A stretch of 64,000 bases of DNA from Tubiluchus corallicola (lineage: Eukaryota; Priapulida; Priapulimorpha; Priapulimorphida; Tubiluchidae): NCBI GenBank assembly GCA_030141605.1, contig JAQGDQ010000022.1, forward strand, positions 764,501 to 828,500, in the 5' to 3' direction. Shown here piece after piece: positions 1,054 through 56,028 of the stretch; position 1 is the first letter of the stretch, and every line of letters starts with the position of its first letter. The position numbers and the translations under genes were made by a program. The notes beneath the pieces are model-generated. The model made no database searches, had not been told where the DNA came from, and saw only the letters and a list, made by a program, of their open reading frames with translations.

Positions 1054-1290
1054 ACCGATGATGAATTAACCAACCCAGTTAAAAGTTTCAGAAAATTCTG
1101 TGTGGATTCTCGGGTATTGGAACCAATGAATTTGCTCTAGAAGATGTGCGTACAAGACCACTTAAGCTCAACCTAGCTATAAGCCTGTCGGCATGAGTTG
1201 TACAAGAGCACTTTGTCCAGGAAATATTGCTGTTGAAGGAGCTACATTAAAGCTCACTTTGCAAAAAAGCGAAATAGACGTACAAGCTTT
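1054..1290 (-). pseudogene. Decayed bait cassette A (D class)
   Basis: A ttttcag|AAAGCTTGTAC acceptor side and a gtgag donor side remain and the body aligns with cassette D, including the 'gatgtgc' Cys-cluster region and 'tttcagaaaattctgtg' at the FPE position. An in-frame stop follows about 14 codons after the acceptor and the WLW codons are lost. Confidence 0.65.
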
Positions 1291-2367
1291 CTGAAAACAA
1301 GATTTAGGCATTTATCGGAATTGCTACTTTGTTGGTGTCCGTCAACTGCTTAAAAATTAACATATACATTGAATGCCAACAATACGTCTTCGTCTTTCTT
1401 GATCCAATTGCTTACCGAATGTAACATCGAGCAGGAGGAATGGGGTAGGGAAAACCGGAATATGTGTAGCAGTGACAATTACTGGGCTGCGAACGGATGG
1501 TAAATAAACTAATGCTATCACAAGGCGTTTAACTACTGATGGCTTAGACAAATCCGTATGTGTATACAATAGTACATTTGTTGCCTAAACTTGAACATTG
1601 ATATAAAGATGCAAATTGTATAAAAATTTGATAAATAGCCTATAATATAATTGAATTTTATAAGATTTTTATTAAAAAGATCAAAGTTTCAACTGCACAC
1701 TAGTAATAAAGTGATAAAGAATGTAATAAAGAATGACTTAAAAAGTTAATATTAAAAATGATGTTTCAGGTTATTTATCAAACTGACGCCCGTTCATGTA
1801 TAAAAATGATAATTTTTTCTTGTCTTCTGTTCCTGTTGGTGCATTAGTTCAGATAATTTTGTGTGCCATTATTGCCATAGTTATCCTGCTACCAAGGGTT
1901 CAGTTAAGTGTGTAATACAGCTCAGGGTATTGTACCTGCCACAGTTAAATCATTTGAACGTTTAACCAATACTCGATTACACGGTCAAGAGCAAGTCATA
2001 ACCTCCATCTGCATATTTTTGTTTTTCTTGGTCTTAGTTGTAGGTGCTACAAAGTGTCAGCATTTTTGGAAAATCAATGCTACATTCTATATGAAATACG
2101 ACAATGTTTATTACTGGTTTAGTAATATACTCTTAATGACACTGATTTTATTTATTCTCAGTGAAAGCAGTGTTCCTCATCCCTGAGTAAATAAAATCAG
2201 TTCATTGCTGAATATTATGTCGCCATGATTATTAAGATGAGTAAATTGGAAAAAAAAGCATCAGTAGTAAGAAGAAAAGACTAACTACAAAGTTTAACAT
2301 ATTGTAATGTATTATAGTCTGCATACAATTTACTATCTATGAGCAACGATCTTGGCAAAAGCCTCAC

Positions 2368-2539
2368 CCCGAGGACGTGTTAATCCACAACCAAGACTCC
2401 GGAAACTCTGTGCGGATTTTCCTTACCGGAGCCAGTGAAGGTATACTGGGCCCACTTGCGCTTCCGCTGCTAAAGGATACGGCATCAATGGCTGGTGGAA
2501 GAGCGCTATAAAGAACAGTGCCATCACCGTATACAGTTT
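2368..2539 (-). CDS. Alternative bait exon cassette B (intact, leftmost intact copy)
   Basis: 172 nt, 56 codons, acceptor ttacag|AA, donor GG|gtgag. It begins [19 protein letters not shown] and ends [19 protein letters not shown]. It has no usable ATG and is short, so ORF scans do not show it. Its bait sequence and upstream intron are paralogous to the broken cassette C. Confidence 0.85.
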
Positions 2540-5500
2540 CTGTAAAATAACCACGTCATGCTGTGATGGTGAGCTTTAAGTTTTCAACCTTTACGTCATT
2601 GCTTTGCAAACTAAAACTGACGCTTGATAAACCAATAAATGGAAAAACGAGCAAATGAATGAATAAAGGAATGAGTGAGTGAGTGAATGAATGAATGAAT
2701 GAATGAATGAACAAAGAATAGAACGAACGAACAAATGTACAACTGAAAAAAATAAAAATCTTAAGCAAGCGAGCAAGTGAGCAAAAGTGAGAACAAACGA
2801 ACAAGCCTTGTTTTAATTAACCTGTTGCTCTGATGCACTGTTCTATTCTTTGTTACCTTAATTCGGCAATTCTAAACCACAAACTCATGCCGAAACCCAA
2901 AACCATGTTTAGACTTTTTTTAATACACGTATAATAGCACTTTTGATAAATCGTCAGTTGCTGGGTCTCGGATAAACTGTTATACAGTGTACATGTAGTT
3001 TGAACTTAAATTACTAAGTGCGCTTGTGATTACCATTTCGAAGATTGAAAAAGACAGATTGTCTTTGACACAATAAAACCCATACGAATTTTCCCCAAAA
3101 ATCACTTGGTTTAATAATGCCCGTCCTGTACATTCACTTTTTTTAAATACATGTAATCCATCAATAAGCAATTGCTGACATTAATCAATAAACATCAGAG
3201 TTTCTGCAACGTGCTAATGAAATATAGATCAACGATCAACATTACTGACCAAAGAGCAATCACTGAATTTGTCCACTATTACTCTTCAATTTTTGTTATT
3301 ATGCAAACTGTATACATTGACCTAAATTTGTATACTCACATAAAGATACAACTACATAAAACCATTTTCTCTTGTCTTCTGTTTCTGCTGGTGTAGTAGC
3401 AACAGTTCAAAAAATTTGTTCTATCTTAGTTATGCCTTTATGCTACTGCAGACTCAGGGCTTTTCATCTACCACAAAGATGATAGACGAGAGCTTGGCAA
3501 ATTGGTAAAATGTAACTTTGACAAGAAGGAAAAACTAACTAAAAGTCAAACATGTATTCCAGTAGTAGCAACAGTTCAAAAAATTTGTTCTATCTTAGTT
3601 ATGCCTTTATGCTACTGCAGACTCAGGGCTTTTCATCTACCACAAAGATGATAGACGAGAGCTTGGCAAATTGGTAAAATGTAACTTTGACAAGAAGGAA
3701 AAACTAACTAAAAGTCAAACATGTATTCCAGCTCCACCTGTGCTATCACTTCTAAACGACACTGCATGGGGAGGTGGTGGTGGTGCTACAGTAAAGAGAA
3801 CACTGTCGTTTAGAACAGCCTCATCGCGGTAAACAGAATTCTATAAAACACTATATGTTAGTCACTCTGCGACGTTTTGCGTTTCCATCCCTTACATCGC
3901 CATTTGAAAATTCAAAACTGATGGATAATGAATGAATAAGCGAACAAATGAAGTAAGGAACAAATAAACATACAGATGAATGTCACAGCCGAGCAAGTAA
4001 GAAAATTGGCGAACAAATGATCGAAAATTCAAATAAATATATATTTGTTGAGTCAACTCAACCATTGTAGTCAATTGTGTCTTTATGATGTGGTAAGCAA
4101 GTTTTTACCAGATATCCAGTTATGGTGTTACTGGTTATGATAATTTAGCAGTATCTGTAAAGCACAAATTCGTGCAATTAATTCCGAATCCACAAACGGT
4201 GTTTAGGCATCTTTTGTTGTAGATATAATTACGCTTCTGATAAATAATTGGTTGCTTGTTTCAAATAAGTTATTATATGCACTGAAATAAAAAAACGAAA
4301 AACTAAAAGTGCCTCGGTATATGTTACACTCACATTTTTGGTAAAAGATCCGCAAAGCCCATCAAAACGTTAAAACTTCACCTGCGCCTTCAGCGATTGA
4401 AAAATCTCTTTTTTCCGTCCTCTCCTTTCTTCCCATTCTCATCCTTCCCCCCTGTCTTTCTGTTTCAATTTATATAATATCTTTGTAAAAATTTAATGAG
4501 AGTGATCTGTGATGCTGATAATATTGAAAATCATTACTTATTAAAATGTAAAAGAGAACGTAACGATAACGTGTACACGTTTTACTTAAGCAGGGTTAAT
4601 AATTGAAACACTACGAGGACGAATGCACATCTTTGATGCTTCGCGCTGCCTACAAACTCAGCAATCATCAACTGAAGGCCCACAGCCTTGGCGCACACTA
4701 GCTCGAAACCTTGACGCTTTGTCTAAAATGTGCATTCATTCACTTAATGTTTGTATTGCCAACAACCACAGAACATAAGGTGATAAACTTATAATGACAC
4801 TAAGCGACATATGAAATGGTTATTATTAAACACAAGATTGAAAAATACACCATCCACATGAACTAGACCATACATTAGTTAATGTACCGAAGTTATTAAC
4901 GCTCCACAGACAGGACAAAGACAGAGATGTAATATCTATACAGACCGTATGAGAGCCTCACCCAGATATTGTATTGACCCAAATCCAAGTTTCAGGAAAT
5001 TCTGTGCGCACTTTCTGTACTGTAGCTAATGAATGTGGTCTAGCAGATGTGCATTCAGGACCACTGCATCTGCAAGGTATGCCACCTGGCGCACATGGTG
5101 CAGGAGCACCATTTAAGGCAAAACCTGCTGCCAATGGAGCCGCATCAAAAGACAGTTCATAATAAGCAAAATCATCGTACAAGCTTTCTGCAAACAAATC
5201 AAATCACAGACTGAAATATCTGCTATAAATAGATGGTACACGGCAACCGGAAGAGAAAGTAGTTGTATAATAATCTCTGTCAAAGCTGTCCCAAATTTCC
5301 TGGCAAGAGAAATTTTGACTTAACCACACTTGCAGAAGGAATAAAAGAAATGGTCAACATCATAGAAATACCATATACGAAAGCGGTGGGACAAGCAGTG
5401 TCTTGAACACTGAACCAACACATGAATACAGTCAGCAGCCATAACAGAAATAAACACACAAACACTGATGTGCTTACTAACACATTGGACTTAGTTTCAA

Positions 5501-8500
5501 GTTTCAACAAGCTCATTTTCCTCATTTTTAATGTGCATTTACTAAAAAATTTTTTTAGAGTAATTATTCTACAAAGACACTTTGCGACCTGAACGGAGAT
5601 TATTTTGTACAGATAGAAATAAAGTAAATTTACGTTATCGTAATTTCTGAGGCTGTTGTGAACATTGCAACTATGAGAATACCATAATAGGCCTACTATG
5701 GGAATACTTGGTATCAGAATACTTTTATAATTAAAGAGAGAAAATTTGTCTGCATAGAAGTAGTATTCACTTGCAAAAACGTTGGTTCTACGAGTATATT
5801 CTTCAGGTAAACAAACCAGCGTGCTAATATGGGTGCTTCCTGGATGCTGAATTGTTGATTTTTTTCAATTGTCAGCAGCACTGCCATCCACATGTGGCCT
5901 GTTACTGTCAGAGTATTTGTAAATAGTTCTTCAATAAACGGTAGTGCGTGGTCCCTTTTTGACATTATTCTTCTGCTGGGCGCTCTCTTTTAGGTTTAAG
6001 TGTAAGCGACGTGGATTTGTGAACTGCCTAATAACCCAGTACTTAAGGACTTGAGCAGCTTCTGGCTAAAAAGATGACTGATACTATCATGATGCAGACA
6101 GAGGTCTTTTCTCATTAATAAATGTTGGCAAAATTTTTGATCAGAGTTTAAAACTTTTATTTCAATTGTTTTTATTATTCTTTACTTAACAGTAAAAAGC
6201 AATCAGATTAACTCTACAATCTTCATGCAGCTAGTTATGCAGCAAAAAAGTAATTTGATGTTTTAATTTTCAATATTTAATGTTTTCATGTTTATATATT
6301 TATTTTAATTTAATGTTTCAATTAAGATTAGAGCTTCTAAATTTATGTGATCTAGCATTTTTATTTTATTAACTTTTTTGAAAACTATTTCACAATGTTG
6401 ATTACTTATCAACAAATAATAAACAATCAAATGAATTTTTGAAATTATTAACTATGAGACACGACCCGAGAAAAGTTTGCTTAACTTCGAAAAAAGTGTT
6501 AAGCAAGCTGCCACAAAGGATTAATCATCATGTTTTGTTAGTCATAAAGGGGTTAGTCATCGCGTTTTGTTAGTCAAAGAAATCATTAAATAAAAACATT
6601 AGCTGTTGTGTTAGTCTCACCCTGATGTTGTATTAACCCACAACCATGATTCTGGGAATTCTGTGCGAATTTGCTTCACTGAAGCCAATGAACCCCGAGG
6701 CAGAGATACTGCTCCAGGCCCAGTTTTACGCGCACCGGCTAGTTCAATTCCACTTCGAAATGCACTCCGACTAATACCCTGTGGTGAAGGACCATCATAA
6801 ATTTCTTCTGCAAAACACAATTTTAGTCTAAACAACAGAAAATATCTCATGCATCCCAGGAATGATAGTATAGAAAATTCAGCAAATAATTTTATTTCAC
6901 TAGGTGGAACGTAAATGTAGCAGAACATTTAACTTAATTGACTGTATCAAAAAATTTCATTTTTCTGTCTAATTTCCACCTAACGAAATAAATAATTTTC
7001 AATTGACTTTACTGCAGAATGTTGTTAAGAAGTCGGATAAAGTTCCCAGATTTGTGATTGTTACGTTTTCATATGAAAAAGAATAGAAAGAGAATTAGTT
7101 GTATGCATGGTGCCTTTCATCAGTGGATAAAAAAGCGACAAACCGTAAGATAAATTATCAGTTTATAATGTCAGTAATGGAATGGTTTACCCGCAAATCT
7201 AATCCTCAAAACAAGCAGTGAAAGCAGTGAAACGTGGTGTAGAACGTTATCACAAAATCTTGTTTAATTTATTCCCAGTAATTATTTACACTGTTTCTGC
7301 AATGCACACTTACCTTTATCAAGTACATAAAGAGATTTAAAAGCTATCAACAGCCACATTATTGTTAATTATGAATGGATAAACCAAATAGTTATATCGT
7401 GTCGATTTTGCTGTTTATTTTGGGCATTAAAATCTTTGCTATGCTGCATAGCCTACACACTCAAGAATATACCAAATATCTTCCATGAAGTACCAGAGGA
7501 AAGTGCCAGAGCTTATTCACGGATTTGGCTATGAATGACGGTTGTGGGATTTCAATGTTAATGTATTGCCATGACATGTAACTGATTAACAGAAAGTCCC
7601 ACAAGAAATCAAGAAAAAATTTCTATGAATAGGCTCACCTAACCAGGGCAGATGTTTTGAAAACTACGTACACTCAGGTAGGACAGATCCAACACATTTT
7701 CGAAAGTAAAACTTAATGACCTTAAAACTATAATGCATGGATGGTAATGATATCTGAAAATGCCAAACTTGTCAGTTTATTGGTTTCAAAACTCTAAAAC
7801 TAGTTTGACTTTCAATTTTACTCGGTACGAAATGAGAGGTGGCAATGGGTGGGGAATGGTGATCCAGCTCACATTACCTCTAGGCTGTCATTAAATTGTT
7901 TTTCATGAGTGCATGAAATTAGTAGCAAAAGAAGTGCACAGAGTACTGCACAAACAAGCTGTTAAAGGCATATCAGAACGGCATATCTAACAAACTATCA
8001 TCCAAGACATAATGGCCATAAGAAGAAAGGTTACTTTGTGTGATGCCGCAATCCACATTCTCATAAAACCAATGATATTCTACAAGTTTTATTCTGTTGA
8101 TAATGACCACATACAACATGCAGTAGGGTAAGTCACTTGCAATTTGCAATATCAGTACGTCTTCAGTTATTGTCTGCTCCAGCAGAAACTGGTCACAGTT
8201 AGTGTATAGAGAAAATTCGACAAGCATTAACTATCAGGAGTGCTACTACACAATATGATAAAGTTTAGTAGGTGTAATTATTTAGGAGTGTGGTTTAAAG
8301 TATATTCCGTAAATTTCACATGTTTCTTGCGCAGTTTTTGCACCATTACAAAGAACACAAATGACAGGTTAGAATAAAGTTACGAATCAAAACTTGGCAG
8401 AATAAACGCGCACGTTGTGTTGGCCCAAAGCCACGACTCTAATTTGGCTTGTTCTAATTTTGTTAAGTCTCGTGTACAAATTTGTTGTGGAAGGATGAGA

Positions 8501-11500
8501 GAAAGTGGCAGATAGTCCATACATCAACTTTGAATCAATATGTACTGATCAGTAAAATTGTAAGGAAACAATCACTAATATTAATAACATTGAAAATTAT
8601 TATTCATAGAAATTCAAAAAACATGATGATAATGTGGATGTCTTTCCTATGCTGGGGTAAACATGGAAAGACTACAAGAGCGAGTAGTGTTCGAAAACCT
8701 TTAGTGCCTGTGAACTGGGTTGACATGAACTCAGAACTTGTAGCCTTGATGTTCACTAGCTTGTAAACCTCACCGAGTACTTGCAAGGCCTAAGATGGAC
8801 ATTCACCCACACAGTGTTTGTATCGTCAATAAACATTGTATATGGCATTGCATATGTATTGGTATGTGGTATCAACTGACCCATGAAATGGTGTAAACAA
8901 ACACATCATAGAAAAATACACTACACACAGACCACAAGCTTTTGCAACAAACTAAAAAAGCCTTGTATGCATTCATGTGTTTAAACTCAGATAAGAAAAC
9001 GTTAGAACTCTTGTTCATCAAACATGACCGTGCTGTTGATTTCTGCCAAAACGCCAGCAGTGCTTTGAATGCAGAGTCGCTTTGGACATGATCTATCTAC
9101 TGTGAATTCATGCACTTTGTGGACTTACTTATGTGTATGAACAACATAGTAATCCAATGTTTAAGGAAATGTACATGCCACGAACATCTTCTGACTATCG
9201 ACTTAGCATACGGATGCCAATTTTTCGCTAATCTTTGCTTAGGAATATGCCTAAACACTGAAAAATTGGCTGGAATTTTAATTTTCAATGTTTCAAGTTT
9301 TGAGTCTTTAATTAATAATAGGTGGTTCCAAAATTATGTGGTCTGCAGATATTGTTAATATTTTATCAAAAGTATAAGCATATCTAGTACATGCTAGTTA
9401 ATAATAATTAAATAAATACATTTAAATAAATACATAATCCTGGTTATCAGATAATTTTGTGATAAAAAAGTAATGAGCAACGTGCCATAAAGGATTAAAG
9501 TTTTGTTAGGCAGAGTGACCATTCATAAAATTCAGTTCTTGGGCGAGCCTCACTTTAATGTTGTATTAATCCATAACCATGATTCTGGGAATTCTGTGCG
9601 GGTTTGTGAACCCCCAGGTAGAGATGTGGCTGCAGCATCACGTGCATCAACTCCACTAAAAAGTTCTTTTACTCTAAAACGTGGTACAAGGGGTCCACCA
9701 CCGAAACCAATTGAAATAAGTTCTTGAGAAAGAGCTTCTGCAAAACACAATATTAGTCCAAATAAACACTTCCTGGAACCTGGGATAAAAGTTATAGAAA
9801 ATTCAATTTAAAAAACTTTAGATGGAAAATAGATAAAATATGTTGTATGACGGTTCGCCTAACTGGCTTTAGCAAATGTAAAATTCCATAAGGAGTTAAT
9901 AATAATTTGTAAGTGTTCATTAATTTTATCAATGAAAAGGAAGTTATTAGCTTCAAGGAAACTTTCTACACAACGACCTATGAGGTCATCAGGTCAAATG
10001 TAGCACTTTCGTTGTTAGCTAAATTATCAGCTGGGGTTTCAGATTTGATTAAAGTTGCCATTTTGTCAGCGGAAAAAACGCACAGAAAAATAATCAGTCA
10101 GCATAGCCTGTTTTCAGCGAGTTATACAAGAACTGTTCCCATTATTTGATTAACATAATTATAAACGAAAGACGAGTGTTGATTTGCAGTGGCATCTCAA
10201 AATTTGTGTAACTTCGTAATATATAATTAATAAAAACCCCACAATGAAGAAGTTAGGAAGAAGTTATATAAATAGTCTCTCTTAACAAATGCAGTTTTTT
10301 GCATACACTAGAGCAATAAAAAGGCTCAACATAAGTTTTTAGACAAAATTTATCAGAATGCTTCTAATTACAATTATTGCACATAGCCTGGTAATGACTT
10401 TAAGGAGATTATCTAACCTGCCAGCAGTTTGCTGTCTTCAAATTTCAAAACAGCTGCATCTTCTGCGGCCACTCTAAAAATGAGTTGGCTAACTTGGACC
10501 TAACTCTTTCAACTGTCTCACGAAAAATCAGAACATGAGAAGGGATTACTTACTAAGTGGCCTAGCGCGACTCAGCAGTCGTCATTAGTTGCCCAACGTT
10601 AACGTACTGTAACAGCACATTGTCAGTAAAAAAATATACCAAGTCTTGTACCCACCGGCTGTTAAAGTCATAAACAAAAAAATGCATTATTTAAGACAGT
10701 CATTCATCTACTACATAATGGCGAGAATAAAAGGTTAGCCCTGGCGACGTGACAAACTACAACTGAGATGCTTAAAAGCTTTTCTGTGCCTATTAAAACT
10801 GTTAGTACTAATAAGCGAGCCAAATCCCTTGATTAGAAAAGGCTAAAAAATATACACAAATTATGCAATAATGTTTGTTGTGTTCTCAGACAATTACTTC
10901 TTGTTTTCTGAAAAGACACGGGAGGGTAAGCGTGTTTTAAATCATTGTCGAAAAAAATAGTGATATTCTATAGATTACTATCATTAAAATGCCGCTGTAA
11001 TATCTTCGGGAAGTTTACTACTTATAAATGAATAGACTCTGTAAATCAACAATATATGTGCAGGAGTAAAGAAACAAAATCGTTGTACGTGAAAAATACG
11101 TCAAATAGTTCTTTACCGGACAATTTGGGTAAGCTAAATGCCTATATATATATATATATATACATATATATACACGACTTTTGATAATATATGGCAAAGT
11201 TATATTTAAACTACATGTAATAAGATGTTTACAAGAATAAGAAGTATTGCAGCAACATCAAAAATATGCACGTGCACAATGCTTTTCATCTTTCCATATT
11301 AAAGTTTCAAGCCTACATTTCTAATGTCAATAAATCTGTAGATATTATCAACTAAATTCAAAATCTGCCAAACAATGTACTGGATGGTACATATCCTTTT
11401 GCTAGGGGTATAGAAAAGCACCGACTGTTAGTACAGTATAATTTATTATATAAAAGTATTGCTGAAACAGTAGAGAATTTATCAAGCCCCCAAGTTTAGT

Positions 11501-14500
11501 ATGAAATTATCGTAGATATCGCACAGCCCGCAATCTTAAGGGATATGACTGGGCAATCAGTTAATCAAAGAACTCAAGATTCTCCAACACATCTTCCAGA
11601 CATCTCACAAGCGTATCTATTATGTACTGATTGGGCTGTTTTTTATTACCTTAGCGCCCATGCTGTTCCTTCAGGACAGCTCTAATGTATTTTGCTTGTT
11701 TCTGTATCTCCCGTAAAAAATTTGTACGACCTACAGAGGAGGCGAACATGTACTAGCTTAACAGACAGCTGCTACAAAAAGTTTAGCACATAGAATCACT
11801 TGACAGTGTTATTTGTAGTTAGCCTACACATCTATTATTGACGGTTTTTGGTCTGCCAGAAAGAACAAATAATGGAAGACAAAAAACAATAGAATAAAGT
11901 TTGACATGAAGAGGAGGTACTCCTATGTTGTATAACTGACCAAAAATTTCGACTCTGAAAATTTCATTCTGATTTTTCTAGGTCTGTCATAAATGTTTGT
12001 TAAGAAAGGAAAAGTTGGGACTAAGGACTGGACACTAGATGTGGTAGTGGTAGCAAATGTGCAGATGTGCATTCAGGACCACTGCAGGTACAAGGCATGC
12101 CACCTGGCATACATGGTGCAAGAACACCACTTGTGGCAAATCCTTCTGCCAAGGGAGCTGCATCAAAAGACAGTTCATAATAAGCGTATTCATCATACAA
12201 GCTTTCTACAAACAAAGGTTTAGCCACATCAGATTTAACAACTTTCTGTACAGTTTAAAAGAAATTTATAATGTTTTTGTGAAACTTTGTTTCCTTCTCT
12301 CATAGCCTTTTTTATAATAAACAAATGGTGGAATAGCTAAACATGAATCAAAATCCAGTCTAAGATAATAGGAACTCGTATTAGGCTGCTTTTGATGAAA
12401 GAAGATTAGTCACGTAAATGTTGTGGTTTCTTTATACAGCCGAGCAGCACAGAAAATGTAAATGACGAAAACTCACTATAGAAAATTATTGCTGGATAAC
12501 GCTACACTCTCTATTAAGCCACACAGTCACATCTGTGCCACAAATACATGACACACAGAATCCAGAAAGGTAAGGTCCACTTAATAGATGGTCCCTATCA
12601 AAGATCACACGTCAAAATTTTCTGGCAAGACATCTTAAACTAATAACAGTTGCAGAAGTGTTCAATTTCATTGAAATACTGAATACTTCTTGAACGGTAA
12701 ACCAATGTTCTTAGTGACCATAACAGGAATAACAATTATCCACATTAACACTGACTAGTTACTGTGAAGTAGTTTCAAGTTTTCAGCATGTAACTTTCCT
12801 CATTTTCAAGACACATTTAGGAACAAAATCTTCTAAAGTAATAACTCTACAAAAACTGATTGCGCAGTGAATAAAGATCATTTAAAAAAGCAATTCTATG
12901 TTATCCTCACTTTAGTGAATCGTTGCAAAAACTTTTCATCAACTATGCAAAGAGCTAACGAGTACAATCTTCCCACTATTACAACAAATTAGATAGAAGC
13001 GCATCTTGGAAATGCCCATATTCTGTTGTAAAAAGTCAGAAAGATTCTACAGTAAAACTGGCAGCTTGTTGGTACGTATGTGTTAATTTCCTTCAATTAT
13101 CATCAGCACATCAGAACAATCAAGTGTTGTTTTCGTTGCAGATTGTTCATCAATGCTGTAACGCAGGGTCACTTGTTATTATAGTTGTTTATTTTTCACT
13201 TTATCTTTTACACAATTAGTCCTAAAATGCCAGGAAAAATGCCAGTCACTTTGAGTTTTCCAATGCACAAATAATGTATGTTATCTGGCATTTCCATTTT
13301 ATCAGTTTCTCAGAAGTGCAGAACAAAAAGTGCTCAAATAAAAACTGACTTGACGCATTATTTGAAATTATATGTATAGTTACTGTTGGTGTCAAGCAAT
13401 TCAATCAAAAATTCTATCATTATTTGTTTTCTTTTTACAAATTTACAAATATGCATATGCAAAACTGTTTAAAAAGGAAGCCAGCCTTAGTCATGTGACT
13501 TACGCTTTTAGTAGTGCACGCCACCTATCAATCAAACTTGTTTCTATACGTAGTCACACTTTCTGTTGCCGCTATACTGTTCATTCCGTTTTGTGATACT
13601 TTCGTTGTTTTTGTCTATTAACTAGTTGCATTTTCAAGCCAAGTCACCAGTAAATGTAAGTCACATCTACCTTTATAATTAGTTAAACGTTTAAATCGGT
13701 TAAAATTGCTTCATAGAGTCATAAAGTAATAATTTGTTTCAATCTTCTTAAAACTTCTTAAAACTTTTTAAAACTTTTTGTCTAAATGGTAATAAGCTTT
13801 TGCACATTCCAAAGCACCTTTTGTAATCCTGTATTTTAATAAATTGCAGGTCTATCGCACAGTTCAATACAGATTTTTGCCGTTTTATTGCCTGGACTGG
13901 GCGCATCCACATCATAGACATTTACTGCTAGGGGTGTAGAGATGGCTCAATTAGCACTCACGGAGAGCAACTTACGTAAGATGCACAAAGCCGATTTGAA
14001 AAACTTATGTATAGACTATGGACTACCAGAGGAGGGCACTAAGGACCAACTCATCGCCAGGATGCTGAAGGACGCGAGAGACGCCCGCCATGAAGCCGAG
14101 AGAACAAGCGACGCCATGATAGAAGATTTGCCTGAGCCGATAAGCGAATCCCAGACACCTGATGGTCAAGGTCAACAACTACCTGTTGCAGACTTACAGC
14201 AGCGCACGTTAGTAGACATCTCACGACAGCAATCGCAAAGAATGCCGGACTACAGTAGCCATCGACCACGAGTTATTAAGCCGTTCAATGCATATTCGTT
14301 TGCCGGGGATAGTAGGCCGATTAGTCAAGAAGATATTAGCCTTGCACCTGTAACTAAAACTCAGCCAAGGTCACAAGCCCATTCAGTTAAATCTGGAGTT
14401 AGTAACGTTAGCCGTCGCGCACAAGCATACATTGAGAAAGCCTTAGAATTAAATGACGAGGAAGCCAAAATCAAAAGGCGCATGGCTGAAGCTAAAATTC

Positions 14501-17500
14501 AGCAAGAATTAAACGAAATTGAAAATAAGCGAGCATTAAATGAGGTCAAGTTACGAAAAAGCCTCTTGTCTGCAGAAATGGAAGACGACATTGATGAAGA
14601 TGATAAGTCAGACGGTCAGTCAGTCGGTTCAAACCGGTCGTTCCAGTCGAATAGGTCATTTGGCAATCGTCCATATTCACCGCAACGTCAATCTGCTGTT
14701 GTCCAGGATCCAAGACCACAGCAGAGCAACGAGTTAATTGCTAAAGCTTTTCTAGATCAAGCGAAATGTCTTAATCAGATAGTCAGTTTGCAAAAATTAC
14801 CGCCGCCTGAATTGGTGAAATTTAATGGACATGACGTAACAAAATATAACGCCTTTATCACAGTTTTTAAACAGACATTTGAAACTTGCATAACTGATCA
14901 GTTACAGTTGTACAGATATTTGGTTCAGTACACTGAAGGAAAGGCACAGACATTAGTTGAAGCATCAGAGAATAATAGGAAGCCGTACGATCATGCCGTT
15001 GCCGCATTGCACGCTAAATACGGTAATTCGTCAGTCGCTGCTGCACCATTTAAAACTAAATTGAGATCTTAGAAGCCTATCACAAAAATGGATGACGTCG
15101 ATTCAGTTGAAGAGTTTTCTGCTTTTCTGAACAATTGCGGAGCATCTATGCATGATAATGCATATTTGTTATCGCTAGATGACCCGTGTACTATACAATT
15201 AGTTTGCTCTAAGCTACCCTATCGTATGCAAGATCAAGTTCTTGAGCATGCGCAGAAAATAGAAAAGCGTTATGGTAGACCGCCGAAATTCACCGAGGTA
15301 GTTAAACATATCAGTGATAGGACGAAAAGTTTATCTCATCCTATTCTTAGCCGACAAGCTATGGCAAAATCTACAGATAAAGGGGAAGAGCATACATTTA
15401 AGACTTCCAAAGGTGGTAGTCGCAAATCGTCATCATTCGCTATTGACTCTAATAATATGTCAAAGGGTCAAACTCTAAAACAAAGGCCTTGTTTTTATTG
15501 CTCAGCTACTAATCATCGTTTAGATAAATGCAAAGAGTTCAGTCAGCTTTCCTACGATGCCAAAAGAAAGTTTGTCAAAGACAATAAAATTTGTCTTGGA
15601 TGCTTGAATGGGACTTTTCATGCGTATAAGGATTGTAGATCTAAGAAACATTGTGATATATGCAAACGCACTCATCCCACAGTGCTTCATATCGACACGC
15701 AATCACAGTCAGGTGTAAGCGGTGATAGTTCACAGTTACGAACTGATGCAATACGTGAAGCTAAGCCTACAAATCAGCATCAATCAACCTCGACTGCGTC
15801 AATTTCTCGCGTAAACACAAGTGACGTAACTTCAGCCGACAGCGTAGTTTCAATGGCAATAGTCCCAGTTAAAATCTTTCACAAAGATAACATTCATAAT
15901 AGCCGCGTAGCCTACTGCTTCTTAGACCCAGGTAGTAATGACGGCTTCATTTCGGAAGAACTAGCTGAAGAATTAGGGGCTACCGGGCAGTATAATGACA
16001 TCCGCCTACGCACACTTAGTGGGACTCATTTAATTAAATCACAAGGAATTGATGGTTTATGCGTTTCGCGCTTGAATGGTAGCAACGTCGTTGAGTTGCC
16101 ACGTTTGTTTACGAAAGAGTTAATTCCAGCTGATAGAAACGAGATACCAGATCCTAACAAAGTGGAAGAATTGAGGCATTTGAGTGACATAGCGAAATCA
16201 CTCCATCCTATAATGCACAATGTTGAAGTTGGTTTACTATTAGGCATGAACACACCAAAGGCAATGGAGCCTCTGCAAGTCATTAGCCACCCAGATTTTA
16301 ATTGTTATGCTGTTCTTACGCGTTTAGGCTGGACGGTACAGGGCGTAATTGGTAAAGCGTCACGCGAAGGTCTTAGATCCAGCTATAGCCGGGTGATATG
16401 CACAGATGCCGCCACCGAAGAAATTTCGTCTTGTCAGTTTAGCATCCCTACTGCCGTTCAGAATGCAACTGACGCTAATGGTTATGGTGATTCTCAAGAG
16501 GAAAAGCTTTTCATGAACAAAGTTACTGCGCAGACTTGTTACAAGAATGGAAAATATGTTGTGCCGTTGCCATTCAAGAAGGATAATCCAGTTATGCCAA
16601 ATAACAGGGTACAAGCCGAACAGCGCATGCGCAGTTTAGCCAAAAGGTTTCAGGCTGAAGAGCTGAGAAACGAATATACTGCGTTCATGAATAAGATGCT
16701 AGAAAACGGATATGCCGAAAAGGTGCCACCCTCAGAGCCGTACCCAGATGCAGGAAAAGTGTGGTACATACCCACCACCCAGTTTACCATAAGCGCAACA
16801 AGAAAATCAGAGTGGTGTTTAACTGCAGTGCCGTGTTCATGGGAACTTCTTTGAACAACGAACCTTTGCAAGCGCCAAATTTAACCAACTCATTATTAGG
16901 AGTCTTGTGCCGTTTTAGACAAGGACCAGCGGCTTTCATGGCCGACATACAATCGATGTACTACAGGGTTGCAATTCCACGCCACCAAGCAGACTACGTA
17001 AGATTTTTATGGTGGGACCAGGGTGACCCAAAAAATCCGCCGCGTGACTACCGAATGCTAGTTCACTTGTTTGGGGCAGTATCATCAGGAGGATGTGCCA
17101 ATTTCGCATTACAGCAGACAGCTAAAGACAATGTTACTGCCTTCCCACGCGATGTGACTCAAACAATTTTGTTTAATTTCTATGTGGACGACTGTTGTAA
17201 ATCTGCTTCTACAACTCATGATGCCACTGCTATAGCGACACAGTTAAAGGATATCTGTCAGAAAGGAAATTTTAGATTAACACAGTTTGTTGCTAACAAA
17301 TCAGAGATCATAGCCGCCATTCCGATTGAAGATCGTGCGAACCGGGAAAGCAAAACGATCAACGCTTACAAGGAACAGATAGAGTATGCCCTAGGCGTGT
17401 CATGGTATATAGAAAACGACGCCTTTGGTTTCCGCATACGGCTGAATGACACACCCTTGACTCGACGAGGCATACTTTCAACGATCCACAGCATTTATGA

Positions 17501-20500
17501 CGTAATGGGTCTTATTTCACCTGCCTTGTTGATAGGAAAGATTATACTGCAAGAACTCACGCGTGATCGTCTTGGTTGGGATGAGTCAGTGCCAGAAAAT
17601 GTTAGACAACGCTGGGAAATCTGGAGACGAAGCTTGCCTTTAATAGAGCAGTTACGAATTCCTCGCTGTTTTCACCCAGATGATTTTGGTGAAATACAGG
17701 ACATCCAGATACATCACTTTTCTGATGCAAGTGAGGTCGGATATGGTACATGTTCATACCTAAGGCTTGTTGATAGCACCAACCAGATACACTGTACCTT
17801 AATTCAAGGTAAAGCTCGTGTCACACCTGTCAAGCATGTGACCATGCCTAGACTCGAACTCACAGCTGCAGTATTATCAGTGAACACTGCCAGTATGTTG
17901 GACCACGAGCTGGACTATGAAAACGCGCAGCATTATTACTGGAGCGATTCCAAAGTAGTGTTGAGCTATATAGCAAACCAAACAAGGAGGTTTAAGATTT
18001 TTGTCGCCAACAGAGTGCAGCAGATTCTAGACAAATCGAACCCGACGCATTGGCAGTATATTGATACTAAATCAAACCCGAGTGACGTGGCTTCTCGAGG
18101 TCAGCAAGTAGAACAGTTTATCAACAACAACATTTGGTTTCGTGGACCGAAAATGCTTTATGCTGAAGATGAATTTTGGAAGAAAACTGGCATGCAGTCA
18201 TTTAGCATTGCAGAGACCGATCCCGAATTGAAATCAGTCAGGACAATTGGCGCTGCATCACATGACTCTACCAGTCTTATTGACACTTTAGAATCACGCT
18301 GTTCTTCGTGGTACAAGATGAAGAGAACACTTGCAACAGTTATGCGAGCTTGCAATGTATTCAGATCGAATCTTTCCACTGCAAAGCCGGCTGCCAGCTC
18401 CTTAATGAATGACGTAGAAATGAATGGACAATTTTCTGTTGAGTCATTACTTGCCGCAGAGAATATGTTATACCTTCTTCTTCAGTCGAGAAGTGGTGAA
18501 ACCTTTAAAAGAAACTGTAAACCGTTGAGCCCATTCGTGGACAAATTAGGAGTAATGCGAGTTGGTGGAAGAATACAGCAATCCGATTTGACATTTTGCG
18601 AGAAGCATCCGGTCATAATTCCACCTAAAACAGCAACTTCGAAGCTAATTATCAGATGGTTTCACGAAAAGATTGTACATCACTCTGGACGTGGTCTAAC
18701 CATGAACGCGATTCGAACTGCAGGATTATGGATAATCAATCTCAATTCAAATGTACGCAACGTCATCAGAAACTGCATTACTTGCCGTAAGTTACGCCGC
18801 CCACATGAAGAGCAAAAGATGTCGGTCCTGCCAGTCGATCGTCTCACGCCATCACCGCCATTTACATATTGTGCCACGGATGCGTTTGGACCGTTTTTGT
18901 TCGAGAAGGCCGTAAGACTCTAAAACGCTACGGCATCATTTTTACCTGCTTGGTAAGCAGAGCTGTCCATTTAGAGTTAGCTGCATCACTAAACACAGAT
19001 GCCTTCATTATGGCACTACGTCGCTTCCTTGCCAGAAGGGGTCCAATTAGGCAAATGCGAAGTGATTGCGGTACCAACTTTGTGGGAACCATAACTGAGA
19101 CAAAGGAATGCTTCAAAGAGATGGACAACGAAAAAATTCGCAATTATCTGTTGCAGCATGGAGCGGATTGGAAATTCAATGTGCCATCAGCCAGCCACCA
19201 TGGAGGCGCATGGGAACGTTTGATTGGGGCCTCGAGACGCATTCTTGAAGCCTTGCTACAAGAGAATTCTGCACTTCTCACAGATGAATCTCTTAGGACG
19301 CTGTTGATAGAAGTAGAGGCAGTCATGAATAGTCGACCAATTACAGTTGAAGCACTGAGCGACCAGGAACTTTTGCCTTTATCCCCCAATTCTATTTTGA
19401 CTGGGAAAACAAGAGTGGTTCTTCCTCCACCAGGAAACTTCCAGCGACCGGACCTGTACTGTCGCAAGCAATGGAGAAGAGTCCAGTATCTGATGGAACA
19501 ATTCTGGACTCGGTGGAAGAGAGAATATTTGCAAAGCCTGCAGTCGAGATCCAAATGGCTTCATCACAAGCGCTCACTGAAGATCGGTGACATTTGCCTC
19601 ATCATGGATGACAATCAACCTAGAAACGTTTGGAAATTATGTCGCGTTATTAGGACCTATCCAGACTGTCAGGATCAAGTCCGGAGCGTGAGAGTCAAAA
19701 CACAGGATACAGAACTTGACAGACCGATCTCCAAACTAGTTCTACTTGTGGAGAATGATGAAGGTTCAATTCCCGTCGAGGGAGCCACTCGTCAAAATTC
19801 TTAAGAAGACATTTTGGGGGAGCCAGATGTTGGTGTCAAGCAATTCAATCAAAAATTCTATCATTATTTGTTTTCTTTTTACAAATTTACAAATATGCAT
19901 ATGCAAAACTGTTTAAAAAGGAAGCCAGCCTTAGTCATGTGACTTACGCTTTTAGTAGTGCACGCCACCTATCAATCAAACTTGTTTCTATACGTAGTCA
20001 CACTTTCTGTTGCCGCTATACTGTTCATTCCGTTTTGTGATACTTTCGTTGTTTTTGTCTATCAACTAGTTGCATTTTCAAGCCAAGTCACCAGTAAATG
20101 TAAGTCACATTTACCTTTATAATTAGTTAAACGTTTAAATCGGTTAAAATTGCTTCATAGAGTCATAAAGTAATAATTTGTTTCAATCTTCTTAAAAGTT
20201 CTTGAAACTTTTTAAAACTTTTTGTCTAAATGGTAATAAGCTTTTGCACATTCCAAAGCACCTTTTGTAATCCTGTATTTTAATAAATTGCAGGTCTATC
20301 GCACAGTTCAATACAGATTTTTGCCGTTTTATTGCCTGGACTGGGCGCATCCACAGTTACTATATGAGACAGGACCTGCAGACTTAAAAAAGCCTTAAGC
20401 AAGCTACTATAATGGATTAATGGCAGTTGTTAGTCACAGCAATCATTTACTAAAAATTCAAGTCTCACTCTGATGTTGTATTAACCCACAACCATGATTC

Positions 20501-23500
20501 TGTAAACTCTGTGCGGGTTCGTTTCACTGAAGCTAGTTTCAGTGAGCGTCGAGGTGCATATGCGGAGGTATCATCAAAATCCACTTCATCTGTTCCACTT
20601 ACAAAACGAACACCACCATAACCAACATGTTCATCATAACCAGGACCATAATTATAATAATAACCTGGTGCTATGGTTACGGCTTCTGTAAAACACAATA
20701 CTGGCCCCAAAATGACAGAAAGCATTGCCACGGACATGGGAATTATACTGTAGTATGGACAGCTCTCTCTGCAGGTTGGTCTAATTTCTGTCCGGCCCAT
20801 CTAGAACTAGCCTCCAAGCAGCCTTGCTATGTATTTTCAGGAGAAATGGCCCATTTTTTTGTTTTCTGTTTAGTTAAATGTGTGTCAAAACCTATTTCAA
20901 TTTACAGTTGGAGAGCACCAATTTAGTAGGTTTTTTATCGTTAGACATTCAAAATCCACTCTTTACAAAGCAGCATAAGATTACACTAAGGTGAGGTTAA
21001 GCTTAATTAATGTAGCAGAGTATATGGTGCTTCACGACTTTGCGTGTGTTGAAATAAAGCATTTTAAAGGACTTTTTATAATGTTAGTCAAACTGTCAGA
21101 TTTATTTGTTATTGTAATTGATGAAACCTCATCTGATTCAATACCAGAAAAATAACTATAGGACCTAGTTGTATATGAACTGCTTCCGTAATACTAAAAG
21201 GAGCAACCAACTGCTTCCATCATTATAAAAAGGGAAGAACTAACTGCTTCCATAATTATAACAGAGCAACAAACCACTAAAGTATATATTAATATGTTTG
21301 CTGTTTTACCTTGCAAACAATAGAAAAATGCCAGCGTTTATTGGTATCATGGTATACAAAACGGTAGGATCTGGGGATCCAAAAATTAATGTTAATCTAG
21401 GTAATAGAAAATTTCACGATCGGAGAAAAAACTATAAATACGCTCATATAACCCGAGAAATCATTTTGGGATAAGCCAAACACAAGCTGTCAACAAAAAT
21501 TAATACCCTTTCGAAATCAAAATGAAAAGCATTTCTGTTACTGTTTTGCTCATCATTTAGCAACAATTATAAAAAGCTATATAACTTGTCAAAAGGTTAT
21601 TGTGTTCAAAAGGATGGCATTACCTGCACCCACTTTAAAAACCAGATTGGCTTTAACTCTTTCAGTTTCTTTGTGAATTTTGAATTTTTATCCTTTATTT
21701 TACCTATAGCGTGTACCTTTATTTTACTTTATTTTTAGTTTTTTCGCAATTACACGTGCGTGTTTACCTTTTTAGGAACTGTACGGCATTTTGGCTGAAG
21801 TCCGTGAGGGAAGAAAGCTTCTGGAAAAACTTAAGGATATTTTTGAAACTCAAACGCCATTTTGATTTTTGTTCATTGAAGTTCATTGTTCATGTATTAA
21901 CTAGGCAGACAGCGGCCACATAAAGCTTAGCACAGCTAATTGCTTGAAAGTGCCAGGTTCATTGTTCATGTATTGACTATGCAGACAGCGGCCACATAAA
22001 GTTGAGCACAGCTAATTGCTTGAAAGTGCCAGTAACTTGAAGAAAAGACTACACAGTTATTTCTGTTAATTTTTCACCATTAGGAAGAACACAAACTACA
22101 GACAGAGAAGCAGATAAAAAATAAAGTAGGAATCCAAACATGAAAGGACATACTCTGATGTTACGTTAACCCAAAGCCACGACTCTGGAAATTTCGTTCT
22201 AATTTTGTTAGGTCTCCCGTACAAATTTGTTACTGAAGGAGAAGTTGGGGCTAAGGACTGGACAAGATAAGTTGTTGTCGTGGCAAATGTTCTCCTTGGC
22301 AAAGCTGTCCTTAGAAACAAATTAGTTGCAGTTACATAACCGTAACCATCATACACCCACGATCTGGGTTCTGCAAATATTTAAAAAATAACTTATTTAG
22401 TCGCAGTTGCACGCTGCTTCTATTCTTATCCCTATAGTAAACCATAGTAAACTAGAGGTGTAATTATGTCTACCAGCCTCTAACAAATCAATATTACAAT
22501 AACTGACACATTTGCAATTGAAAAACGAAAAATGAAAAAGAAAAGCATTTGCAATTGGTCACATCTCACACAAAAAAAGGAATTCATCATATGCAATAAA
22601 GGGGATGGATTAAAGGGTATACAATGGTAGTATTTCTGCAAAACAATGCTGTTCATTAAATTCCTTTCACAGTAACAGAGAGATGTCTGCCAATATTTGC
22701 ATACTGGAACTTTCGGAAACTGCTGCCGCACTTTATTTTTTCTCGTAAAACGTTGCAAACACAGTTTTTCCAATTTTCCTTTTTTCTCTTTTTTCACTGT
22801 AAGAGGAGATGCTCCCAAATCGACTACTATCCTTGCAAATTTTCAAATATACAAGTTAATATTGATAAAATTGCTCATGTCAATAACTGTACAGACATCG
22901 TTATTCTTCATAAATTATTAAACCAGGAATATGTCACTAGCAAGCAGCATGTATATCAAACCAGAAAATGAATATTTGGATCCTATTTTGAATCACAGCA
23001 GTGTAATTAGTTGGCATATATCTTACTACTCGTACGCTAATTAAAATTTTTATCAACGAATTATTTTAAGTTATTATAACAGAGATGAGGCTCGAGTGAT
23101 CAAGCAAAACAAAGACGGAATCGCGTGTGTAAGACATAACTTTGGGGTATGTCATCACTAAATAAATAAATTATGGAACCAACATCTGATGCAAAATGTG
23201 TCTGCTGTCTTAGCTTTTACGTGATGCTGCATATCTGCTTGAAAACTTTCCTTGTGTAAAATAACTGTGCACTATATAAGATGAAGAGACCCAGTGTGTT
23301 AAAAAGTTATTGCACAGTGTGCTGCAAAACTGAATCCAAGATGTGTCTTTAACACTCTCTGCTTTAAAAAATTGCAGATGTAGTGAGTTAAATGGTTTTA
23401 GTCTGCTTCGAAAGTGTTATTATAGGCATAGAGGTTCAAAAGCAAAATCTTGATTGGAATATACTAACTCTAAAAGAGGTGTTGTTAAGTTGAGCACTTA

Positions 23501-26500
23501 ATACTTAGATAACTAACTTTGACGTTATATTAATCCAAAGCCACGACTCCGGAAATTGCATCCTAATTTGAATTTGTTTTCTGAGTGTAGTTCTTGAAAC
23601 AGAATCTGTATCCGTTTCTGTATCATCATTTGCGAGAAGATCTTCTGTTGTGACTGCAGACGTTGGGGCAATGGATGTTTCAAAAACTGTTGAGGTTGGC
23701 GGTTCAGTTGATGTAGGCTCAGTATAGTAATCAGTATAGTAGTAATCGCTTGATGACTTGCTTTCTGCAAGGCAACAGACTTGGATGAGTCAGAAATTGC
23801 AGAACTGACCACAAATTAGACAGATAATCTTTACAATACGACTATGCAGTCCGTCATGTGAGTTCGGGTAACACACAGAGGCATCAGTCTAGATACGACT
23901 GCAGTACACACGCAAGGACAGCTGAGCGATTAGAAAAGACAGAACATCAAGAGTTAGCTATTTTGGCAATTCTTTTAAGTATTTGTACCATCTGAAGTCG
24001 GAACAGAAATCAAACCCTAACCCTAGCAGAATGATGAATATAAAACTAATTGCATGGGGCAGCCCAAAGTCCTAACCTCAATGTCAATATTGGAAGAAAC
24101 CTTTATATTATAAAAAACTGTAATAGCTTTAGCTATGCTTTATAGGCATAGATTTGAAACGTAAATGTTACGATGAAATCATTGGCGTTTAATTATTTGT
24201 TAGTACATTAGTGATTTTGCTGTAGCTGAAACCAGAAAACCATGCAGATTGTGAGCATTACGTGCGACTAGGTCAAAACCAAAATGCGCAAGCATATGCA
24301 ATCACTTAGTCTGTTTTACAGAAGCCTCACCCTGAGGAGGTATTAACCCATAACCACGATTCAGGAAATTCTTGGCGCACTTTTTTAACTGGAGCTAGGA
24401 CACCTTGACCAGGTGCAAATTGTTGATCCACGCCACCTCTATTAAGTGCTACTGCATTAATGGGCGGGGGAGGAGCATCAAACAATACTGGTCCTCCTCC
24501 GTAACCCCCACCGCCTAGTCTATAAAAATCATCATCTACTCCTGAAAAATATTGCACGTTTTTAGAAGAATAGAAAATAAATTTAGCACGTGACAGGTCG
24601 GGGGGGGGGGAGTGAAGAAGGGGAGGATACTACTAAACCGCTAGAGTTTATTTTTAAACTAGAAAGATAGATAAATAGATAGAATCGATCTATCTATCTA
24701 TCTAGAACTGTCACGTTTTTCTTCAATTTATCAAGAGGACAAATTTACTCTAGCGTTTTAACATTTATCTGCAAGGTGAACTGACAACTTCACTTAAATA
24801 AAGTATAATCACTAGCAATTTGCTGTCAGTCTTAACATTTGGCTTGTACAGTTTCTTAGTAAAGATCTTGTGTTTGATCTACGAAATTCTTTGCATGTAA
24901 TAGCAAATAAAACATTGCTGAATGCTGATTAAAGATACAGCACCATGTTACACTTGGAGTATCGGGAATAAAGCTCAACTGAATGAATGTTCAGTGACCA
25001 CTTTTAGGTGTTTCGTGGCACGGCTTCTAGAAATTTGACTGTGACTTTATCAGGGACGTAATAAAAAATTATGACCCTTGAATTTTCCTCTTGGTCATAT
25101 TAGGCGAAGCACGCTTTGGGGAAATTAAATGCTTTTACTCACTTGAATGCTTTCCTTTGTGAAGGTTTTAAATTTAAAATGCCCAGTTTTAATAGCAAGC
25201 ATTTTTGCTAATCGTGGTTTCAGATTAAGGTCCTATACCTTTCAATACATGTAGTGATCCAGATGGAGCTAATCTCAAGGAAGAAGAGCCCACTGACCAC
25301 AAAAAAACAAAACTGGGAAGAGATCAAATTTCTGGACGAAAACAGTAAAGCAGCTACTGTTTTTTTAGTGAACGTTAAATGATGCGTTAGCAGACTGGTG
25401 CCTGCTTGGTTAACTGTGCTGAACAGTTGAGCATGTCAAGTTCATAAGAGTTGAACAGAGTAACTTTTTAATTAACATGTCAACAAATTTGATTGATTTT
25501 TTAAGCACGGAAGTGTTATGGTGTTATAATGAATTCTCAAGAATAGATGTTACACGAATTAATTCAAAGTACAGATGCATCTACAGGACACGGAGGAGAG
25601 TAGAGTGGTACAGAATGTATTTTTCAAGTTCCATTTCCTTTTTATATTAGCAGAAAGAATACGCTTATATCGAATTCTCACCCCACTGTAGTATTAATCC
25701 ATAGCCAAGATTCTGGAAAATCTTTGCGGACTTTTGGTATGGGGGCCAGAGAGCTTTGCGTGGAATGTTTTGTTTGAATCTCATGCCTGTTGAAACCACC
25801 GCTAAGTCCTAAGGTACCCCCACCAGTGCGATATTGTATTTTAGATTGTATAAAATCTTCTGAAAGAAATCAAGTCACTTATCAGTTCGGAAAATTCCAC
25901 TTCATGGAGCTAAAGCGTGGAACAGCTAGAGTTGTATTTATAGTTGCATATCATTTATCCAGCATGGCAATATAGAAAAGAAACAACAAGATGCTGACAC
26001 ACAGGCAGCAATATTGAAGATATTGCTACTAAAGATCTGAAGATAATGCCAGCATAAGCTCTCAGGATCTCTTTAATTAAGAAGTAAAAATTATTAATAC
26101 CCAACTATAACGACACAAAAATTGGCTGCCGTCCATTGAAACTGCGAAGCGTGGCTACGCACGCTTTAATTTGGTAGAGCAATGTGCCCAAATAAGCGAA
26201 TCAGTAAATTTGAGCAAAAATTCTATATTTAGAGCTGCAAGCTTTTAACACAGCAAAGTAAGGCAACTTTAGCGCTGGTTCTTTCTAGACCATTTCACTC
26301 CTTTAATGAATTGAGTCATTGGTCTACCCATTTTTACTACCTGCTAGCTATATCAACTTTCTTTGCACTGTGTCACGAAAAACGCTCTCTCTGGTCGCCC
26401 CATGAAAAATGCTTGATCAGATACACAAGACACTACTACAAACTACTGTTGGCCATAACACATAACTATGCTCTTGCTGGTTATTTCTTTTCGGTCCGTA

Positions 26501-41500: not shown

Positions 41501-41734
41501 TTCAGCCATAGGTAGCATGGCGGACGAAACATTCCAGGAGCAGTTTTCCTGGCAATCCATTCAGTAACAAGCATCAGCGCTTCTTAACTTCGTAGGCCTA
41601 ACATACCCTGTGGCCACCCAGGTATCATCGCTTCGGATTGAAGCGAACACTAATAAACCTAAGGTAAAAAGCATCGACTAGACGACGCGATAGAGTTCTT
41701 CCCTCTGGGAGGTGGAGAAGAGATAGATATATTA

Positions 41735-41794
<60 letters not shown>

Positions 41795-41870
41795 GTAGGT
41801 AGGTAGGTAGGTAGGTAGTAGGTAGGTAGGTAGGTAGGTAGGTAGGTAGGTAGGTAGGTAGGTAGGTAGG

Positions 41871-41968
<98 letters not shown>

Positions 41969-41969
41969 T

Positions 41970-42010
<41 letters not shown>

Positions 42011-49930: not shown

Positions 49931-56028
<6,098 letters not shown>

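Follow-up and report, generated by a model that had tools for sequence, protein, structure and literature searches.

Ten frame-compatible bait exons in a predicted CD109-like gene of the priapulid Tubiluchus corallicola

On the minus strand of a 64,000-nucleotide stretch of the Tubiluchus corallicola (Priapulida) genome (contig JAQGDQ010000022.1, positions 764,501 to 828,500; hereafter the window), exons with dissimilar bodies and one common end follow each other in tandem. The locus raises the question of whether these exons are interchangeable bait regions of one protein, chosen one at a time. The explanation that we hold with considerable confidence is that ten frame-compatible bait exons, likely used one per mRNA, would serve a bait-plus-plug protease sensor.

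The joined model of the gene comprises exons 1 to 18, all on the minus strand, and the A2M and thioester exons downstream were read separately. Exon 1 (44874..44950; ATG, hydrophobic leader, GT donor in phase 2), picked from three candidates, encodes a predicted signal peptide. Exons 2 (37673..37860) and 3 (37243..37367) have AG/GT borders and keep the frame, the former also matching P0002, a predicted CD109-like protein of Priapulus caudatus. Exon 4 (35597..35753) leads into MG2, which continues in exons 5 (35170..35292) and 6 (34890..34963), whereupon the short exon 7 (34365..34404), picked from two phase-compatible candidates, fits the relatives. MG3 starts in exon 8 (33627..33711; VLPRFEV) and runs through exon 9 (33338..33443); exon 10 (31271..31474) shows 74 per cent identity to P0001 across its length, and MG4 lies in exons 11 (30949..31061) and 12 (30125..30239). 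Past exon 13 (29656..29766), the A2M_BRD domain occupies exons 14 (29341..29403), 15 (28802..28990; weak donor GTTGGC) and 16 (28563..28712), where it ends. Exon 17 (26862..27069) carries RKKR at 26976-26965, which we take to be a furin-like site. Exon 18 lies left of the window (C2265:763231-763114).

The macroglobulin and bait-region domains of this constant part (MG2 1.7e-18, MG3 2.6e-15, MG4 6.9e-6, A2M_BRD 2.2e-32) appear in the order expected for the A2M/TEP superfamily. In a phmmer search of the PDB, CD109 ranked best (3.5e-71), followed by TEP1 (1.3e-49), A2ML1 (8.4e-44), human A2M (~1e-34) and C5 (~1e-24). By this ranking, the gene is a CD109-like member of the superfamily, nearer to CD109/TEP than to complement or tetrameric A2M. 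Outside the window, on the same strand and past the bait, PF00207 (A2M) exons occur at C2265:763093-763230 and 762563-762694, and a frame with the thioester motif GCGEQN occurs at C2265:759858.

Nine intact bait cassettes are located in the window, on the same strand as the constant exons: B (25682..25859, 178 nt, open frame), the Gly-rich D (24331..24541, 211 nt), the acidic Ser/Thr-rich E (23518..23764, 247 nt, net charge -9), the basic G (22154..22370, 217 nt), the Tyr/Gly-rich I (20469..20685, 217 nt), J (9554..9737, 184 nt), K (6621..6807, 187 nt), L (4962..5187, 226 nt, four Cys) and M (2368..2539, 172 nt). The nine acceptors (25859, 24541, 23764, 22370, 20685, 9737, 6807, 5187 and 2539) are all AG/exon junctions, and each cassette has a phase-1 acceptor, a GT donor in phase 2 and a length of 1 mod 3. 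Cassettes E and M also have a second in-phase GT, 6 and 9 bases upstream, respectively. The bodies are variable and the C-terminal part is conserved: R-x-x-F-[PT]-E-[ST]-W-[LI]-W recurs as the end motif in 9/9, and R, F, E, W, W and N are invariant columns of the alignment. By the sequon rule for N-glycosylation, the end of cassette L lacks the sequon. Some 0.25 kb beyond the left edge of the window sits a tenth intact cassette (C2265:764252-764069), followed by exon 18 in the phase that the cassettes require. The array, ten intact cassettes in tandem plus four relics over 28 kb, is thus bounded by exons 17 and 18. An earlier note on this DNA had described nine intact exons with the same phases, variable baits and a common end, in the bait position of one CD109/TEP-type gene, joined to a phase-matched exon 17 and possibly continuing to the left. 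All of this stands: the exons were recovered at every acceptor, exon 17 ends at 26862 with the one-base overhang of a split codon, the domains and the top PDB match argue for such a gene, and the matched end of human CD109 (699-720) follows its bait (aa 651-683).

Any of the ten cassettes read singly leaves the frame open through exon 18 (10/10), skipping them all leads to a stop, and none of the 1,013 multi-cassette combinations is open (748 + 265 tested). The same note had held that phase alone enforces the choice of one. Frames do fit one at a time, but phase is insufficient to force a single cassette because four, seven or ten in series restore it; stops within the cassettes are needed to close these sets (0/210, 0/120 and 0/1 open, respectively). 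Across the nine window cassettes, the two wrong frames contain 55 and 24 stops, where about 40 would be expected in each, so this frame lock need not be selected. From these frames, splicing is predicted as likely to yield ten versions of one protein, with exactly one cassette per mRNA.

Translation of several cassettes in series into a poly-bait protein is brought to mind by P0003, P0005, P0014, P0030 and P0031, 5 of the 84 proteins retrieved from other animals, whose predicted sequences hold two to four ends in series; every serial combination of the ten meets a stop, however, and we give this account almost no credence. It is ruled out here for complete cassettes with the called splice sites. 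The multi-end proteins themselves resemble what automatic gene modelling makes of an array, with real serial use a possibility in those animals. Equally hard to credit is that the cassettes are parts of separate tandem gene copies. Tandem duplication of cassette units together with their flanks is visible, but within the window the constant part matches nothing beyond its own exons except at 57643, where the match is at chance level (E 0.16), with no match between cassettes, and a single exon 18 closes the set. The constant exons occur once, which rules out separate copies for the window and agrees with the one gene proposed earlier.

How one cassette would be selected is a further matter. In Dscam-like docking/selector systems, one intronic element is complementary to sites preceding each variant. 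Intron 17 was scanned against 8 regions upstream and 8 stretches serving as controls, and no site stood out as such an exclusive-choice pairing element (mean differences from controls ranged from -3.6 kcal/mol at best to +3.0 at worst). Early stops expose mRNAs to destruction by nonsense-mediated decay. Joining may be loose, with only single-cassette mRNAs surviving and all others being destroyed for their early stops, as the closed multi-cassette combinations and the failure to find a docking element in intron 17 would both allow. Nevertheless, such a scheme seems to us wasteful with ten cassettes, the scan for control elements was confined to intron 17, and the variants of the snail gene BgTEP2 are reported, in the part of PMC7016707 available, as products of mutually exclusive exons. 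We regard loose joining as a possible but clearly less probable route than a true choice of one cassette per mRNA.

Cassettes do die, as indicated by four relics among the units: a chimaera of an L-type 5' half (136/156 bases) and an out-of-frame G-type 3' half (11930..12216), a G-type 3' end (8370..8510), an M-type 5' part (3732..3850) cut by a duplicated 170-base repeat (3393-3731), and an L-type cassette with stops (1045..1300), all on the minus strand. The last of these forms the low end of the interval first reported for the array. A BEL/Pao LTR retrotransposon with a Pao peptidase domain (13384..20355, plus strand) is inserted within the array, antisense to the gene; its LTRs of 528 bases bear 4 differences, and its target duplication is GTTAC.

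Relatives were charted in three protein searches. The first, with a 71-aa exon query, could reach only short proteins for that reason and returned one match, P0001. The second gave 26 matches among 7,994 scored candidates, those sharing most words, and the third gave 57 matches to E = 10, seven of them with E < 1e-3 (P0028 to P0034); 15 of the 57 were inspected singly and the remainder by motif scripts. P0002, the closest among the matches listed (59.6 per cent identity across a 718-aa stretch of the constant part), has a GCGEQ thioester and, flanked by the same two constant parts, a single bait-plus-plug segment. It is an automated prediction with one cassette in the record, and its segment scores best with cassette G, with clear orthology to none of the ten. 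Of the cassettes, G alone had a counterpart from another assembly in the protein search, namely, P0028, a 131-aa frame that matches G at 54/72 positions versus 28 for the next best cassette. In the T. corallicola genome itself, one paralogue shows five cassettes in the same exon phases as the ten-cassette array, and three others show one cassette each.

The relics and the single cassette of P0002 would suit a gene that uses only one or few cassettes, e.g., the last one beside exon 18, the rest being ageing duplicates not yet decayed. Against this, all ten keep an open frame and in-phase splice sites, G has its counterpart in another assembly, and the 17-codon ends of all nine window cassettes combine low pN (0.13-0.21) with high pS (0.54-0.81); we consider the proposal improbable. 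Pooled, the ends give pS 0.65, near saturation, versus pN 0.18, and this excess of synonymous over amino-acid-changing differences means that the ends are kept as protein; by this measure, they are under purifying selection. The chance of all nine frames being stop-free is ~10^-18 in an independent-base model. Between cassette L and the L-type half of the chimaera, dN is 0.126 and dS 0.23 over 47 codons, values that were not used as evidence because sites are few and one partner is a relic. In a lenient global alignment comparing bait, end and intron identity, only 9/36 cassette pairs passed the filter, themselves near shuffled-sequence level, and the comparison was discarded.

The common end suggests how a cassette may work. 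Each would be a bait-plus-plug module, i.e., a variable stretch, the predicted protease target, followed by a constant plug segment in which R-x-x-F would correspond to R732 and F735 of alpha-2-macroglobulin. According to the part of PMC9352918 available, that segment passes through the MG2-MG3 channel and helps to maintain the untriggered shape, with only a slight effect of R732A and a marked one of F735A. None of the nine aligned cassettes departs from the plug R and F, and both residues are present in 86/88 motif-found bait ends from the 84 retrieved proteins. Cutting of the bait would free the plug, whereupon the protein would collapse and expose its thioester, and the cassette in place would set which proteases trigger it. 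That each cassette must bring its own channel plug would be a simple reason why every one repeats the same end. The array gene is predicted to be transcribed and to have a protease-sensing, immune role.

A broader reading, offered tentatively and rather doubtful when its parts are taken jointly, is that splice-swapped bait-plus-plug cassettes are ancient in protostomes, perhaps bilaterians, and predate the divergence of priapulids, nematodes, bryozoans and molluscs; that two loci with ten and five cassettes run here beside single-cassette paralogues; and that cassette L, disulfide-locked by four bait cysteines, fires only if protease cutting and reduction coincide. The locus offers a fully bounded example, with ten intact cassettes and four relics in decay, one chimaeric, and the single-cassette paralogues are natural comparators in the same genome. 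The origin of a new protease bait, and whether invertebrates fit baits to the attacker, thereby become testable at one locus.

Variation at the bait position has precedents, here taken from the available parts of the sources. Alternative splicing in exon 5 of Drosophila Tep2 also varies a hypervariable bait-like region and yields five isoforms (PMC5489563), half as many variants as the ten-cassette array. CfTEP of the scallop Chlamys farreri likewise has mutually exclusive exons, but fewer (six, with seven challenge-induced isoforms, summarised in PMC7016707), and its expression is known. The array gene resembles BgA2M (three variants) and BgCD109 (eight predicted, four recovered) of Biomphalaria glabrata, and A2M-2 of the shrimp Fenneropenaeus chinensis (six), in alternative splicing at this position (PMC7016707). 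A close parallel is B. glabrata BgTEP2, whose 12 mutually exclusive exons span 30 kb (PMC7016707). That number contradicts the earlier claim of an array larger than known ones. A record size is ruled out by the same count. Exclusivity was shown in BgTEP2 transcripts, whereas here it is predicted from genome sequence. No bait-exon array in priapulids was found among the titles in the literature searched, which covered few subscription papers. BgTEP2 and the array gene are both of the iTEP/CD109 type and carry tandem bait/cleavage-region exons whose bodies vary and whose C-terminal part is strongly conserved, 12 exons in the mollusc versus ten intact and four relics over 28 kb in the priapulid. 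A snail-type bait-exon array would be placed in an ecdysozoan branch.

The gene that houses this array reads on the minus strand from 44950 to 26862 as exons 1 to 17 of a single gene (709 codons), with AG acceptors and GT donors throughout and an unbroken reading frame. Its protein starts with a predicted signal peptide and carries the MG2, MG3, MG4 and A2M bait-region domains of Pfam, and CD109 and TEP1 are the top matches of this constant part among solved structures. Exon 17 is followed by nine exons, the bait cassettes B, D, E, G, I, J, K, L and M (acceptors at 25859, 24541, 23764, 22370, 20685, 9737, 6807, 5187 and 2539), which have the common phases that an earlier note ascribed to them: each starts after one codon base and ends after two, and their lengths of 172 to 247 bases are all 1 mod 3. 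No copies of constant exons were found between cassettes when the constant part was searched against the window, which argues against each cassette belonging to a separate full gene copy. Near the gene on the same strand are a rhodopsin-type GPCR in one open frame (47813-46830) and an UNC-93-like exon (56040-54991). Long short-unit repeat tracts, whose translations repeat a single residue or a small set of residues, occupy 53841-54176 and 41662-42037.

The window was placed at contig C2265:764501-828500 of the 343.5-Mb assembly, and the guess that the array runs on to the left was borne out by one intact cassette. This tenth cassette (C2265:764252-764069, 184 bases) lies about 0.25 kb beyond the window edge and is the sole match with E below 0.1 in a profile scan of the adjoining 19.6 kb. 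Next comes exon 18 (C2265:763231-763114), whose first base is the one base that completes the split codon of every cassette. The thioester motif GCGEQN is encoded in a frame beyond exon 18 (C2265:759858), and A2M-domain matches fall at C2265:763093-763230 and 762563-762694. The array therefore has both ends defined and spans about 28 kb; of its ten intact cassettes, nine lie inside the window. The downstream part of the Priapulus caudatus relative gave a single chance-level match within the window itself (40378, E 0.57).

Spliced singly between exons 17 and 18, each of the ten cassettes gives an open frame (10/10). When their genomic order is kept, there are 1,013 ways to join from two up to all ten of them (748 of sizes 2, 3, 4, 5, 7 and 10, plus 265 of sizes 6, 8 and 9), and every one runs into a stop, as does the direct join of exon 17 to exon 18 with no cassette. 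The proposal that phase alone enforces the choice of one cassette is thus right in its effect but incomplete in its cause, since phase is restored by four, seven or ten cassettes, and these joins are closed by stops. For the nine window cassettes, base composition predicts about 40 stops in either wrong frame; 55 occur in the one that would apply to a second cassette and 24 in the other, so the lock may be a by-product.

Assuming independent bases, the chance that all nine window frames are stop-free is near 10^-18. Over their last 17 codons, the nine cassettes differ at 0.65 of synonymous sites, a value near saturation, vs 0.18 of amino-acid-changing sites, and the same imbalance holds for each cassette taken singly. 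Judged from sequence, the window cassettes are not products of chance, and their ends are conserved at the protein level. A 131-aa frame from another assembly (P0028) is identical to cassette G at 54 of 72 positions, vs 28 for the next best cassette, and is its counterpart; counterparts of the other eight were not seen in the same protein search, whose reach is limited to proteins close in length that share exact words.

Four further units in the window, all broken, emerged from the profile scan. An M-type relic is weak in that scan (E 0.01), and its flank aligns with that of M at E 1e-10. Alignments such as that of K with J (417 columns, 61 per cent) show that units were duplicated together with their flanks. 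A chimaeric relic (12216-11930, minus strand), out of frame, joins an L-type 5' half (136/156 bases) to a G-type 3' half at a short shared stretch, which shows that recombination between cassettes occurs and can misfire. The I-J intron holds a BEL/Pao LTR retrotransposon (13384-20355, plus strand, antisense to the gene) with a Pao peptidase domain, a 5-base target duplication (GTTAC) and LTRs differing at 4/528 bases (99.2 per cent identical), features of a young insertion.

Other exon-17-like matches lie on contigs C1986, C1395, C1567, C1689 and C2311. The interval between the exon-17-like and exon-18-like parts was inspected on these five contigs, with borders set by motif and splice-site inspection only. 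A second CD109/TEP-like gene (L029, L030; C1986:700001-720000) has five cassette ends, one with L in place of the first W. All five could use a phase-1 acceptor and a phase-2 donor, as in the window array, and one further unit there is probably a relic. C2311 (L031), C1395 (L033) and C1689 (L034) have a single bait cassette each, resembling the first of the C1986 array, and no cassette end was found by motif in the C1567 interval. Uninterrupted frames of 1,453 to 1,872 aa with A2M-domain matches occur at L001 (C1874, 3.19 Mb) and L004 (C1915, 3.02 Mb), and others on C1658, C1700, C1721, C1830 and C782; these contigs possibly stem from a bacterial cobiont or contaminant.

Over 718 aa, the constant part shares 59.6 per cent identity with the P. 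caudatus predicted protein (P0002), and the next relative among the matches listed is from Lingula (35.8 per cent). Among 34 loci, six related genes included, nothing exceeds 58 per cent identity to the P. caudatus exon-17 piece or 70 per cent to its exon-18 piece, and both pieces find their best match in the window's gene. These identities by themselves point to a priapulid distinct from P. caudatus as the likely source. Upstream of the bait, exon 17 encodes RKKR (26976-26965, minus strand), which we take to be a furin-like site. RKKR recurs in the C1986, C1395 and C1689 paralogues, and in 12 of 24 long relatives among the matches listed R[KR][KR]R lies no more than 220 residues upstream of the bait end; the protein may consist of two chains, like C3.

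In all nine window cassettes a variable body is followed by a common end, R-x-x-F-[PT]-E-[ST]-W-[LI]-W, whose R-x-x-F part marks the proposed plug. The nine window bodies range in net charge from -9 (E) to +4 (G) and include Gly-rich, Tyr-rich and Cys-bearing forms. Cassette L (5187-4962) alone among the nine has bait cysteines (four), and it alone lacks an N-x-S/T N-glycosylation sequon after the W-x-W end. The invariant R and F have the spacing of R732 and F735 in A2M. According to PMC9352918, bait cleavage in the A2M family frees a segment threading the MG2-MG3 channel; in A2M, the collapsed share of the protein is raised markedly by changing F735 in that segment and slightly by changing R732, and the bait can be replaced by Gly/Ser with function kept. 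The stretch of human CD109 that matches the cassette end (699-720) is likewise located after the bait, given as aa 651-683 in PMC7960916. Each cassette would then supply bait and plug together, and this would account for the pairing of a freely varying body with a constant end; different bodies might meet different proteases.

Of 84 retrieved database proteins, five (P0003, P0005, P0014, P0030 and P0031) contain between two and four bait ends one after another; they come from nematodes, a bivalve and a bryozoan, under the record names Trichostrongylus, Tegillarca, Watersipora, Steinernema and Ancylostoma. These read like automatic gene models that string together similar arrays; if so, the arrangement would be widespread. 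No report of such an array in priapulids was found in the literature searched. The expectation that this array exceeds known ones was mistaken: snail BgTEP2 is described with 12 mutually exclusive exons spread along 30 kb and a conserved C-terminal part (PMC7016707), vs ten intact cassettes here. Scallop CfTEP has six mutually exclusive exons, as summarised in PMC7016707, and Drosophila Tep2 has five isoforms according to PMC5489563. The array in T. corallicola, whose cassettes are predicted to be used one at a time, is of the same kind as these and others and, though not the largest, is complete and bounded.
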